This document shows, piece after piece, positions 29,828 to 34,140 of a stretch of DNA of 35,867 bases. Both the position numbers and the translations under genes were made by a program. Each line of letters begins with the position of its first letter. Positions within the stretch are counted from its first letter, which is position 1. The notes under the pieces were generated by a model. That model searched no databases. It was not told where the DNA came from and saw only the letters and a program-made list of their open reading frames with translations. The stretch spans positions 1-35,867 of IMG/VR virus record IMGVR_UViG_3300045256_000043. One strand, given 5' to 3'. This stretch comes from a virus.

Positions 29828-31021
29828 TCAGCGGATGGGTTGGCCGCCGTGCTTCAGCGTCACTTTCATGAGGGCGAGCGGATCTCCGGATTCCGCGGCC
29901 TTGCGGATCTCCTCCTCCTTCGCGGTCTCGGCGGCCAGCGTTGTGTCGGCTGCCTTATCCACGACCTTGAGGGCCCCCTTGGGCGCTTCCGGCTGTGCTT
30001 CCAGCTCGGCGACCCTCTTGGCGAGCTTCTCGGCCTCCGCCTTGGCCAGGGCCGTCTCAGCTTCGGCGGCCGCCACCTTGGCCAGCGCCGCGTCCAGGGC
30101 GGCCTTCACCAGGGCCTCGGCTTCAGCGGCCTTGGCCAGCTTCTCTGAAGCATCGCCGCCAGCGGGACAGTCCGCGCCCATCGCCGTGGCGTGATCATGG
30201 ATGGCTTGCAGGTGCTCCTTGTCGGCCTTCGAGTTTCGAGCGCCGATCTTGCGCAGCGGCGACTTGGAGGCCATGGCCAGCGAGCCGTCAGGCAGCACAT
30301 CGATATCTTCGCCCTGCATCAGCTCGGAGGCCTCTTCCTGGACCAGCGTCACGAGCGCCGCGGCGAAGGCCGAAACCACCGCCTTGAGCTTCGCCGGGAC
30401 CGCGCTGCCATCACCCTCGACCGCGCTCTCCGTGGAGATGCACTCCTGGAGCGCGTTGACGCTGGCGAGCAAGTCCGCTGCCCAGCCCACCTGGTACAGG
30501 CCCTTCTCAACCGCGCCGTCCACAGGCTCCCTGAAGGCGACCTTGGCGAGCGCGCCGTCCGCCTTGAGGACTTCGAAGAACTTGGCAGTGGGCACGCACG
30601 GATTGTCCACGAGGGAGGTCTCAGAGGGGCTCGCCGTGAAGCGCATGGCGTCGCCATCCTTCCACTTCTTCACATACGAGCCGCCGATGCTGAAGCCGGT
30701 GTAGACGCCTTCCAACACCTTCTGCCACTCCTGATCATCAACAATCTTGGTGCCCAGGTCGATAGCCTTTTCGGCATCGTTGAAGTCGATGTGAATGACC
30801 TTCCCGGCGGCGACCTTGCCGTGCATCGCCCGGATGTTGCCCAGGCTTTTGCCGTCCGTGGCCTTGGCGATCTCATCGGACCAGGCCTTGAAGTAGGGCT
30901 TGCTGGACTCGTAGTCTAAGATCTCGCCAGATTTGTCCACGACTTCCTGTGTCGCGCGGCCCCACACCTCGCGGCGCGCCTCATCGACCTTCATCAAGGG
31001 GATGAAAATCTGCATGCTCAT
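29828..31021 (-). CDS. Prohead protease with scaffold-like C-terminus (XkdF-like)
   Basis: The 397-residue protein has an N-terminal protease domain with the XkdF-type pattern: MHGKV (H67), VYTGFSIGGSYVKKW (S111) and a SPSETSLVDNPC segment (131-142). The C-terminal half is helical and charged (about 285-350), likely an internal scaffold removed by self-cleavage. Catalytic H67 and S111 are inferred from alignment by eye. The start overlaps the portal stop (ATGA) and it precedes the capsid gene by 98 bases that show no gene. Confidence 0.85.
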   Translation of the reverse strand: MSMQIFIPLMKVDEARREVWGRATQEVVDKSGEILDYESSKPYFKAWSDEIAKATDGKSLGNIRAMHGKVAAGKVIHIDFNDAEKAIDLGTKIVDDQEWQKVLEGVYTGFSIGGSYVKKWKDGDAMRFTASPSETSLVDNPCVPTAKFFEVLKADGALAKVAFREPVDGAVEKGLYQVGWAADLLASVNALQECISTESAVEGDGSAVPAKLKAVVSAFAAALVTLVQEEASELMQGEDIDVLPDGSLAMASKSPLRKIGARNSKADKEHLQAIHDHATAMGADCPAGGDASEKLAKAAEAEALVKAALDAALAKVAAAEAETALAKAEAEKLAKRVAELEAQPEAPKGALKVVDKAADTTLAAETAKEEEIRKAAESGDPLALMKVTLKHGGQPIR

Positions 31022-34000
31022 GCTTGCTCCTCGTCGTCACTTTCTTCGTTTAGAACTGGGAGCACATCGCACTCACAGTTGTGTGTTATGATGGAATTAG
31101 CAATAAACCATCCATCTTTTGTGGACAGGTTGTAGACATGACCAGAAAAATCTTCCCCGAAAATCTCAACGATCTTTGCCGCCGCTACTTGGCCGGGGAA
31201 CCGGCATCCAAGCTCGCCAAGGAGATTGGTGCCACCCAAAAGGTCATCGTTCGCTTGCTGACTGAAAAGGGGATCACCATCCGCGGCGGCAGGCAGGCCA
31301 AGGCTATTGCTAGAGGGTTCGATGATGCCGAGATCCCGCGCATCATCGCCGCTTACGCTGGTGGCGAGTCCTCGACGGAAATCGCAAGACGATACGGGTG
31401 TCACAGCCTCACAATCCGAAATGTCCTGCGCCGCACCGGAGTTGGAGTTCGCAGCCAAAGCGTTGCCCGCCATGTTGAGGCGGTCCGCGCTGGTCCCGCC
31501 GAAAGAGGGCGACGCGCTGAGGCCGCCCACAACGCTGTCAGAGGCAACTGCCAGCCGGAGTCCATGCGGATCAAGAACGCGCTCTCCAGAGCGGAGCGCA
31601 TCTCCAATCAATCCTGGCTTGAGATCGAGTTTATGGATTTGATCCGCCGCGCCGGAGGGCATTGCATTCCCCAACACGCCGTTGGCCCATACAATGTAGA
31701 CATTCTCGTCAATCGTTCCGTCGCCGTGGAAATCTTCGGCGGCGGATGGCATGGGAGCGGCCGCCATGCCGCCCGTCATCAAAAGCGCGTCCGATACCTG
31801 CTCAATAGCGGTCTCGATGTGATGATCGTCTGGGTCAATGGCCGCCACGAGCGCCCCTGGCGCCTCGCACTTGATCACCTCATCGCCTTGATGGAGCTCA
31901 GAAGCAGCAACCCATCCGCGCATCGTCAATATCGGGTGGTTTGGAGTAACGGTGACCTCGTGACCGCCCTCGATGACCAGGCGAATCACTTGCCCCTTAA
32001 ACCAGCGTTTGAAGTGGTGAGAGACGCCAGCGGCAGATACCACCGTTCCACCTAACACACAGCCCGGATGGGCAGGCGGCGCGTCGTCTCCGCTGCTGAA
32101 TTGCTCGTCCAAGGGGATCTCGCCCTGATCCTCGTTTTCGTTGCATTCGTCGTCGATGCCGTGCTCGGATCCCAGGACCCATTCCTTCTTCGACACGCGG
32201 CCCGAAGCCCGATAGGCGATCATGTTCCCGCCCACATCGGCCCGCGCCAGTTCGGTCCGCGCGATCATCTCCGCCCGCTGCGGACTGAACGCATAGCTCG
32301 CCTCAAGAGCATCGGCAAGTTCGGCCGTGCTGAGACCACCTTCAATGGCCTCCGCGATGTCGCCACGAAGCCGCTCGATGGTCGTAGCGTCCACGCCCTT
32401 CACCAGGTCGGCAGCCTGAGACTTCGCGAAGTCCACGGCCTGGTTGTTCACCTGATTGACGATGGCGATATTCGCGGCCTCGGTCGGATCGATCCCGATC
32501 TGGATCAAGGCCTCGATGCCACCGTCCTTGACCATGGCCTCAAGCTGGGACTGCATCGCATCCGACAGCGCGCCCCATCCGCCCGTGTCAAGCCCGGCCA
32601 GGATGGCGTCCACCTGGTCCTGGCTGATTTCGTCAGCCTTGCCGAGCTTCGCCGCGATTTGATTCGCCAGGCTCGCGGCCTGGGCGCGGAAGAGCTTGGC
32701 GATCTTGGGCGCGAGCTTCTTCACAGCCCTGGTCATGGCTGGACGCTTGCGGTCGATGGGTTTGATGGCTCGCTTGGCGAGCTTCGCGGCAGGGGGCTCA
32801 GGCTCGATAGGCGGCACAGGGCCGTCACCAGGAGGCTGTGGCACGGAATCCGGCTCAGGCTTCTCTGGCAGCGGGTCGCGACCCATGTCAGCGCGGACCT
32901 CATCCGGCAGCAGCACACCGCTCTGGATGTAGATCTGATCCGTCTGCGCCTGCACCAGCGGATCATTGTCCCGATCGTCGATCCAGACAAACTCGTAGTT
33001 CGGCTCGCCGATGACTTGAGAGATGATCCGATCCATGAGGGACTTGAACCACAGTTGAAGCGGCACCAGGCCTTCCTGGATCGCCTGCTGGTGGGCGCTC
33101 TCTGCCGTGGCGCGGTTCATCTGCTTCACAAACGGCGTGGGAGGCACGCTGAAGCAGTAGCAGACCACGCGGGCCAACCATTCGTCGTACTCGTCCTTGA
33201 GCGCGGCCTCCTTGAGGTCGAAGGGCTTGACGCCACCCGGGATCCAGCGCGCACGGCGGCGCTGCGCGGTGTTGCCGCTCAGTAGTCCGTCGAAGTACTC
33301 CTGATACTTCTTGATTTGGTCAGGGTTCCAGCTCTCGGGCGCCATCAGCAGCAGGTCCGGCGCGCTGCCATCGGTGTAGTACTGGAGCTGATGGACCTGA
33401 CGCCGGATGGCAATGTTCACGGTGACGATGATCTGCTCGGTCTGGCTCAGGCCGAAGGCTTTGTGCGCGCGGGGATTTCGTGGATGGACGATGAGCTCGT
33501 CGCGGCTGTAGTTCACCGCGGGGACGCCCTTGAGGCGCTGCTGGTAGGCCACGCCCTCCAGCGGCGTGCGACCATCAGCCCCCAGGATCGGGTTGATTGT
33601 GGCGCCGTCGACCGGCTCGAGCGCGAAGAGATCTCCGCCCTTGGTCCGCCGCACATACAGACACGGCTGGTCCAGCACGAACATGTCCTCCAGGATGATC
33701 CGCATCCAAGAGGCGAAGCCATTGACGCGATCGGGCGCTTGAAAGAACGCCTCCAGCTTGTCCGAGATCGCATCGTTGGCCGCGCTCGCTTGCTTCTTCG
33801 AGGCGCTGCGGGGCATTTTCTTGCGGATCGTCCAGGGCAGCTTGGCGAGCTGGTCCTTGCGCGTCTCAATCACGAGACGCAGCAGGTCGTAGTTGTCTGC
33901 GAGGTTGCGAAGGTCCGAAAAGGACACGCCCGAGTCGGCCAGCTTGTTGTTCTGCTGGATGTTCCATCCGGTCGGGTAGTCCCACTGGCGGCCCTCAACA

Positions 34001-34140
34001 TCCGGAGGCGCCATGGGCTGAAGCGGCGTCAGCGGGCCGAACCAGTTGGATGCGTCGCCCGTCAGCACATAGCGCAGCGCTCCGCTCGCCCGGGCTACCA
34101 CGCCCGCGGGGATCGGAGTCACCACGCCGCCGGTAGGCAT
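31018..34140 (-). CDS. Portal protein fused to Mu gpF/SPP1 gp7-like domain, split by an intein
   Basis: The 1040-residue precursor begins with a phage portal domain (about 50-440, with WNIQQNNKLADSGVSF and YCFSVPPTPFVKQMN) and a proline-rich linker (about 440-470). A Mu gpF/SPP1 gp7-like head morphogenesis domain follows (about 470-710, with MIARTELARADVGGNMIAYR and IPLDEQFSSG). The motif APPAHPG-CECDVLPV is interrupted by an intein from Cys694 to Asn1021. Splicing would leave a 712-residue protein. The portal is the dodecameric DNA gate; gpF-like parts enter the head or act in assembly. The gene overlaps both neighbours. Confidence 0.92.
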   Translation of the reverse strand: MPTGGVVTPIPAGVVARASGALRYVLTGDASNWFGPLTPLQPMAPPDVEGRQWDYPTGWNIQQNNKLADSGVSFSDLRNLADNYDLLRLVIETRKDQLAKLPWTIRKKMPRSASKKQASAANDAISDKLEAFFQAPDRVNGFASWMRIILEDMFVLDQPCLYVRRTKGGDLFALEPVDGATINPILGADGRTPLEGVAYQQRLKGVPAVNYSRDELIVHPRNPRAHKAFGLSQTEQIIVTVNIAIRRQVHQLQYYTDGSAPDLLLMAPESWNPDQIKKYQEYFDGLLSGNTAQRRRARWIPGGVKPFDLKEAALKDEYDEWLARVVCYCFSVPPTPFVKQMNRATAESAHQQAIQEGLVPLQLWFKSLMDRIISQVIGEPNYEFVWIDDRDNDPLVQAQTDQIYIQSGVLLPDEVRADMGRDPLPEKPEPDSVPQPPGDGPVPPIEPEPPAAKLAKRAIKPIDRKRPAMTRAVKKLAPKIAKLFRAQAASLANQIAAKLGKADEISQDQVDAILAGLDTGGWGALSDAMQSQLEAMVKDGGIEALIQIGIDPTEAANIAIVNQVNNQAVDFAKSQAADLVKGVDATTIERLRGDIAEAIEGGLSTAELADALEASYAFSPQRAEMIARTELARADVGGNMIAYRASGRVSKKEWVLGSEHGIDDECNENEDQGEIPLDEQFSSGDDAPPAHPGCVLGGTVVSAAGVSHHFKRWFKGQVIRLVIEGGHEVTVTPNHPILTMRGWVAASELHQGDEVIKCEAPGALVAAIDPDDHHIETAIEQVSDALLMTGGMAAAPMPSAAEDFHGDGTIDENVYIVWANGVLGNAMPSGAADQIHKLDLKPGLIGDALRSGERVLDPHGLRLAVASDSVVGGLSASPSFGGTSADRLNMAGNALAANSNSGAAQDISDCEAVTPVSSCDFRRGLATSVSGDDARDLGIIEPSSNSLGLPAAADGDPLFSQQANDDLLGGTNLLGELGCRFPGQVAAAKIVEIFGEDFSGHVYNLSTKDGWFIANSIITHNCECDVLPVLNEESDDEEQA
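31084..31092 (+). promoter_or_regulatory. Extended -10 promoter for the antisense nuclease
   Basis: TGTTATGAT is an extended -10 element (TGnTATAAT with one mismatch). It lies at the very end of the intein, opposite its last splice-motif codons (SIITHN). No good -35 is visible, as expected for extended -10 promoters. Transcription would start near 31099, about 39 bases before the ATG at 31138. Confidence 0.55.
31138..32055 (+). CDS. Vsr/DUF559-like homing endonuclease encoded antisense within the intein
   Basis: The 305-residue protein has two similar helix-turn-helix segments (YLAGEPASKLAKEIGATQKV, about 17-36; AYAGGESSTEIARRYGCHSL, about 72-91). A basic linker leads to a nuclease domain (about 158-236). 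There IEF (E164), NVDIL (D188), VAVEIFGGGWH (E198, H205) and LLNSGLDVMIVWVN match the EDxHD/Vsr/DUF559 pattern. Its stop is six bases inside the intein start. I infer a homing endonuclease that spreads the intein. The ATG at 31138 is preferred over GTG 31081 because a GGACAGG site lies eight bases upstream. Confidence 0.85.
   Translation: MTRKIFPENLNDLCRRYLAGEPASKLAKEIGATQKVIVRLLTEKGITIRGGRQAKAIARGFDDAEIPRIIAAYAGGESSTEIARRYGCHSLTIRNVLRRTGVGVRSQSVARHVEAVRAGPAERGRRAEAAHNAVRGNCQPESMRIKNALSRAERISNQSWLEIEFMDLIRRAGGHCIPQHAVGPYNVDILVNRSVAVEIFGGGWHGSGRHAARHQKRVRYLLNSGLDVMIVWVNGRHERPWRLALDHLIALMELRSSNPSAHRQYRVVWSNGDLVTALDDQANHLPLKPAFEVVRDASGRYHRST

Follow-up and report, generated by a model that had tools for sequence, protein, structure and literature searches.

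The window analyzed here is the IMG/VR virus record IMGVR_UViG_3300045256_000043, taken in full (35,867 bases). Its portal-MuF (minor head) fusion gene contains an intein that is very probably mobile and whose homing endonuclease appears to have a complete gene of its own on the strand opposite the intein. The intein lies at 31078-32061 on the minus strand and a 305-codon gene at 31138-32055 on the plus strand, and the coordinates given for both in the initial annotation, which was made from the letters alone, proved exact. We also consider it likely that the window represents a large family of phage MuF inteins with full antisense dual coding, undescribed in the searchable literature, in which the splicing halves and a DNA-binding nuclease occupy complementary strands with codons in register, and the nuclease's ribosome-binding site (RBS) and start codon lie in intein block F. 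The features are as follows, with AlphaFold2 (AF2) confidence given as pLDDT (predicted local distance difference test) and helix-turn-helix abbreviated HTH.

31018-34140, minus strand: portal-MuF (minor head) fusion gene, 1040-aa precursor including the intein (PHROG 2662 portal, E 3e-111)
31078-32061, minus strand: intein, 328 aa, with C1 at 32061-32059 and N328 at 31080-31078; insertion site HPG/CECD (here and below the slash marks the border)
31777-32061, minus strand: N-terminal splicing part, block A to B, with TPNH at 31947-31936
31717-31734, minus strand (read 31734-31717): DFHGDG "motif" adjoining the linker, in alignments the reverse complement of the nuclease VAVEIF strand
31273-31680, minus strand: sense linker, residues 128-263, predicted to be disordered (AF2 pLDDT <50)
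31078-31254, minus strand: C-terminal splicing part, blocks F and G, GHVYNLSTKDGWFIANSIITHN (AF2 pLDDT 89-97 at residues 281-328)
31123-31129, plus strand: putative ribosome-binding site GGACAGG, 8 nucleotides (nt) before the ATG at 31138
31138-32055, plus strand: antisense homing-type nuclease gene, 305 aa, ATG at 31138 and TAA at 32053-32055
31165-31266, plus strand: first HTH, residues 10-43 (HTH_58, E 1.7e-4; AF2 helices 10-18, 23-30 and 34-43)
31330-31434, plus strand: second HTH, residues 65-99 (HTH_38/HTH_7; AF2 helices 65-74, 79-86 and 90-99)
31615-31908, plus strand: EDxHD/Vsr-like nuclease domain, residues 160-257 (matches to 3R3P and 3HRL)
31621-31623 (E162), 31699-31701 (D188), 31729-31731 (E198) and 31750-31752 (H205), plus strand: nuclease active-site candidates
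32053-32055, plus strand: TAA stop of the nuclease, opposite sense Leu3 (TTA)

The host gene matches the Pfam families Phage_portal and Phage_Mu_F, both above cut-off, and the extein junctions can be read directly from the sequence (HPG/C1 upstream and HN328/C+1 downstream). The splicing residues C1, T39, H42, H327, N328 and Cys+1 are all present, as the initial annotation had read them in what it called a portal-gpF protein; C1, T39, H42 and N328 are invariant across 57 inteins (window included), and the +1 residue is Cys in nearly all relatives, as it is here. The window intein scores 42.3 bits against Pfam Intein_splicing (PF14890; cut-off, 35.8), TIGR01443 is above cut-off on the C-terminal splicing part, and the intein profile matches the Mtu RecA intein with an E value of 1e-8. 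In an AF2 model run with an alignment of 57 sense sequences, mean pLDDT was above 90 at residues 1-90 and 81 at residues 91-100, and the best Foldseek matches of this model were inteins (probability 1.00, E ~1e-3). A Pfam domain search found no nuclease domain, LAGLIDADG or other, in the sense intein, which agrees with the missing sense-frame LAGLIDADG motif reported earlier. An in-frame homing endonuclease was considered for the window intein and rejected, given the lack of a sense nuclease match and the pLDDT below 50 in linker residues 128-263.

The codon blocks of the plus-strand open reading frame (ORF) and of the intein coincide: every codon of one frame, read as its reverse complement, is a codon of the other. 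The nuclease's first HTH lies opposite the C-terminal splicing part of the intein, and its last third lies opposite the N-terminal one. Taken alone, the window nuclease gave HTH matches and a weak match to MTES_1575 (E 5.5e-5; 23.6 versus a Pfam cut-off of 38.2), a family matched by 51 of 59 antisense proteins with a best E value of 4.5e-8. The family profile matched I-Bth0305I (3R3P) at E 8.4e-5 and the DUF559-like 3HRL at E 1.8e-5, and its first HTH region matched the HTH protein 2LVS at E 4e-10. The EDxHD/Vsr/DUF559-like similarity, which the initial annotation named together with two HTH repeats, is weak for the single protein and firm with the family profile. Y185, D188, V197 and E198 are invariant in the 59 antisense proteins; E162, N186, H205 and R217 are conserved in at least 90% of them, with H205 missing from several divergent members. 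AF2, given the 59 antisense sequences, predicted a confident fold (mean pLDDT, 90.4) in the order first HTH, second HTH, helical linker, nuclease domain and C-terminal hairpin. With this model, 2LVS and 3R3P ranked at the top of the Foldseek matches in PDB, the latter with a probability of 0.99 and a TM score of 0.60-0.67 by target length. By sequence and by predicted fold, the antisense protein is related to I-Bth0305I; the possibility raised at the outset, that this frame would have no nuclease similarity, did not hold up.

We found no free-standing lineage of this nuclease in a search that was not exhaustive, and both distant phage matches that were opened lie antisense to minor head or neighboring head-region genes. 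In the Burkholderia phage BcepSauron (L020:940-1911), a free-standing endonuclease matches the nuclease family in the HTH region only, which suggests that DNA-binding parts may be shuffled among homing nucleases.

A similar antisense frame is widespread among relatives. tblastn searches matched the antisense protein in 121 phage records and the sense intein in 116, all at <60% identity, and scans of viral contigs with the single window proteins gave no matches. Among 125 unique related inteins, 120 had an antisense frame open across the overlap, which bears out what had been proposed from the window alone. Twenty-four phage records (window counted) were studied closely, including phages of Salmonella, Escherichia, Pantoea, Cronobacter, Vibrio, Pseudomonas, Klebsiella, Edwardsiella, Gordonia, Rhodococcus and Idiomarinaceae, among others; in these, the longest antisense frame was in register and its stop lay 3-69 nt inside the N border. 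An IMG/VR scan with the sense profile yielded at least 578 relatives, and among the best 80 of these, 79 antisense frames matched the nuclease profile (E <=2e-20). All 56 of the longer matches from a scan of bacterial genomes had an antisense nuclease in register; their taxa include Actinobacteria, Chloroflexi, Proteobacteria, Spirochaetes, Planctomycetes, Muribaculaceae, Clostridiales and Cyanobacteria. As a negative control, 12 of 20 further, mostly much weaker Hint matches had no nuclease match of any kind.

Some of these elements had been annotated before. An intein is marked in the records of Escherichia phages Snoke and fEg-Eco06, and PK1 carries unnamed antisense ORFs. In Snoke (L004, 2417-3046) the annotated mat_peptide of the intein is 630 nt, shorter than the 273 residues given in the record's note; the Snoke intein in the present analysis comprises 272 codons. 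In a contig closely related to the window intein (L036:3001-3818; 58% in the best segment), a frameshift breaks both frames, through either sequencing error or real decay.

The antisense gene carries its own translation signals within the intein. Its ATG lies 60 nt inside the C border (57 nt leaving out the Asn codon, the figure first reported), and its stop ends 6 nt inside the N border, also as first reported. In 83 of the 125 unique inteins the ATG keeps this exact distance of 60 nt from the C border, and in 121 of the 125 the antisense stop falls within the first 130 nt (43 codons). At the RBS position, inside the residues of sense block F (VYNLQ/E), relatives carry GGAGGTT or CGAGGTT; a strong Shine-Dalgarno sequence is present in 50 of 58 inteins versus 15.3 expected from synonymous recoding of sense block F. 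Opposite the antisense ATG, the sense residue is His in 71 of 87 inteins and is encoded by CAT in 58 of those 71, versus 174 of 491 in exteins.

Selection on the two frames was examined in nine pairs of related inteins (69-89% DNA identity) by counting differences by codon position and their effect in each frame, expressed as wSense and wAnti. In the exteins, differences at positions 1, 2 and 3 numbered 930, 723 and 1682 (position 1/position 3 ratio, 0.55) with a wAnti of 0.90, which is ordinary behavior for a sense gene. The 20 codons beyond the antisense ATG (17, 17 and 45; ratio, 0.38) and the first 16 intein codons (12, 7 and 56; ratio, 0.21) kept the sense-gene pattern. In the linker the counts were 735, 240 and 432 (ratio, 1.70), so that the antisense third position was the freest, and wAnti was 0.30 (bootstrap, 0.27-0.34) with a wSense of 0.63 (0.56-0.71). 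Both frames were constrained in the N-splicing block (wSense 0.33, wAnti 0.41) and in the overlapped part of the C-splicing block (wSense 0.42, wAnti 0.32); over the splicing blocks as a whole, wSense ranged from 0.14 to 0.42, a strong sense constraint. The switch of pattern at the borders of the antisense gene was sharp. Judged from these substitutions, selection on the antisense frame is strong throughout the overlap, selection on the sense frame is strong in the splicing blocks and weak over the linker, and the suggestion that only the sense frame might be under selection found no support. Counts for the window against relatives at ~60% identity were too saturated to decide alone.

One sense motif needs to be read with this overlap in mind. 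DFHGDG is highly conserved in the intein frame and occurs at the same place in relatives; its reverse complement encodes the catalytic VAVE(I/V) strand of the nuclease, and a motif analysis of the sense frame only would be misled by it.

Of the host genes tested, most belong to the MuF-like or minor head class, and the family has more than one insertion site. Many members sit at HPN/C or IN/C; others in MuF genes sit at STT/CRARDG (Escherichia phage fEg-Eco06, L016:1441-2334) or at ARTE/T (Tsukamurella, L140:2980-3924). At one locus (L129:2653-3810) the host gene is possibly a phage metallopeptidase, by a weak match, and not MuF. Empty sites were compared in Salmonella phages: phage ER10 has the empty site corresponding to the LSPA1 intein, with a gap-free join and 160 of 180 flanking nt identical. 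Presence of the intein is sporadic among close relatives. At two loci (L076:3001-4050 and L152:1988-2617) the antisense frame has internal stops, lost active-site residues or a deletion and the intein frame is open, which fits a homing cycle in which the nuclease may decay and the intein frame may not. From the nuclease family, the precise empty sites, the sporadic presence and the nuclease decay, we infer homing activity. That an intein and a probable homing nuclease share one DNA segment on both strands, as the initial annotation proposed, is supported by the relatives, the nuclease similarity and the selection on two frames.

We postulate that the sense frame makes a portal-MuF precursor in which the two halves of a normal Hint splicing core, joined by a long and probably disordered linker, would form an intein expected to excise itself. 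The antisense frame, with its own Shine-Dalgarno sequence and ATG in sense block F and its own stop near the N border, would make an EDxHD/Vsr-like nuclease with two HTH domains. The expected target of this enzyme is a MuF gene without intein, cut close to the insertion point, which is often an HPNC motif. The cut would fall on intein-free MuF alleles in co-infected cells, and repair would copy the whole segment in. The nuclease gene has both its start and its stop within the intein, so a single homing event would carry intein and nuclease together. An additional role in interference with rival phages is possible.

An alternative hypothesis is that the antisense ORF is a by-product of a GC-rich frame read in register and that the intein frame alone is real. 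For the window by itself this has some force: the Leu/Ser codon usage of the host gene gives P ~0.13 for an open antisense frame, long antisense ORFs lie opposite many host genes in the window, and a single open frame is unremarkable because the frames are codon-in-register in GC-rich DNA. The relatives tell otherwise. Mid-GC members are also open (in Vibrio 1.113 the chance probability is 8e-14), and the product of the chance-open probabilities for 86 unique inteins is ~10^-254, an index and not a strict P value, the sequences being related. In the overlap, 10 of 30,871 sense codons (0.03%) are antisense-stop codons, versus 567 of 40,848 in N-exteins (1.4%) and 134 of 5,500 over intein codons 1-43 (2.4%), a depletion of ~43-fold. 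Together with the turn of the substitution bias, which favors the antisense third position within the overlap and nowhere else, openness and stop depletion refute a chance ORF; the embedded Shine-Dalgarno sequence and ATG and the predicted nuclease fold with conserved catalytic residues point the same way, and we regard the by-product explanation as highly improbable. We give equally little credence to a real nuclease in a dead or slow intein, whose sense frame would be open only for portal read-through and whose insert would be tolerated in the mature protein. The linker would suit this, being weakly constrained in sense and predicted to be disordered, but the invariant C1, T39, H42 and N328, the strong sense constraint on the splicing blocks and the well-folded prediction for both splicing parts do not.

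Homing nucleases are also able to exclude rivals, and the nuclease could be real and serve mainly interference competition, cutting co-infecting intein-free phages, or some other role than self-spreading homing. Since the target gene codes for a head protein, its cleavage would be damaging to competitors. Against this, the nuclease gene lies wholly within a precisely inserted intein, and sporadic presence in close relatives and nuclease decay with an open intein frame fit a homing cycle; we consider this explanation unlikely, and the two roles are not mutually exclusive. Several points weigh against our preferred reading, a mobile intein with its homing nuclease antisense to it. Splicing, cleavage, homing and antisense transcription are inferred, and a promoter scan of the window gave no convincing antisense promoter, only a single weak site overlapping the start codon. 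The window RBS (ACAGG) is weaker than those of relatives. The Foldseek E values are marginal both for 3R3P (0.03-0.06) and for the Mtu RecA intein in PDB (0.0012). The selection test used simple counts with no multiple-hit correction, two of its pairs came from one phage group, and all pairs lie elsewhere in the family, the window being without a close enough relative. Finally, the loci were gathered with intein profiles that include the linker, which favors nuclease-bearing members, and the counts do not give prevalence among all MuF inteins.

The components described here are known (inteins and EDxHD/Vsr nucleases); the arrangement is new to the literature we searched. Canonical large inteins, such as PI-SceI, with in-frame LAGLIDADG or HNH nucleases, have in common with the window intein Hint blocks A, B, F and G, insertion in a conserved motif and association with a homing-type nuclease. 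They differ in that the sense frame here is without a nuclease, which is instead a separate opposite-strand protein with its own RBS, start and stop. The EDxHD/Vsr-like homing endonucleases (I-Bth0305I, 3R3P) share the nuclease domain by sequence and predicted fold. A fractured gene has both its intein and its own coding sequence broken in two, with a nuclease gene placed between the parts; in this "fractured gene" arrangement of Dassa et al. 2009, EDxHD/Vsr-like nucleases are reportedly associated with inteins in phage genes. Unlike a fractured gene with a split intein, the window has a single open precursor (31018-34140, minus strand) and a contiguous intein, and the nuclease runs antisense through the splicing blocks. 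In group I introns, homing endonuclease genes can lie on the antisense strand within the self-splicing element. Such introns need not stay open as protein, whereas inteins must, and here both strands code for conserved proteins.

The nearest described case is that of the ShiLan-type insertions in phage methylases, in which an out-of-frame HNH homing nuclease lies in an insertion whose host frame stays open and which has no splicing blocks (Arsenault et al. 2025, PMC11855218). Both conceal a homing nuclease in an alternative frame while the inserted DNA remains open in the host frame; the present case differs in the opposite strand, the EDxHD-type nuclease with no HNH match and the intein with conserved splicing blocks. 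In the open literature searched, we found no description of a contiguous intein whose splicing blocks are overlapped on the antisense strand by a complete nuclease gene; a preprint by Gosselin et al. 2025, cited in PMC11855218 for non-canonical actinophage inteins and overlapping frames, could already cover part of this and may include some actinophage (e.g., Gordonia) inteins of the present family.

It is rare for two conserved folded proteins to be encoded antisense to each other, and such cases are often disputed. This family offers more than 100 unique examples in which the register is defined and translation signals are embedded; with the exteins and intein ends as an internal control, the evolution of overlapping genes becomes directly testable. 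The arrangement may explain large phage inteins that are seemingly without a nuclease, and it warns that the conservation of an intein "motif" such as DFHGDG can come from a gene on the other strand. It also provides a new source of nucleases, with the MuF gene as their probable target. For the phages themselves, it means that an intein can uncouple splicing from nuclease expression, and since expression of the nuclease requires a separate antisense transcript, homing could run on a schedule different from that of the host gene.
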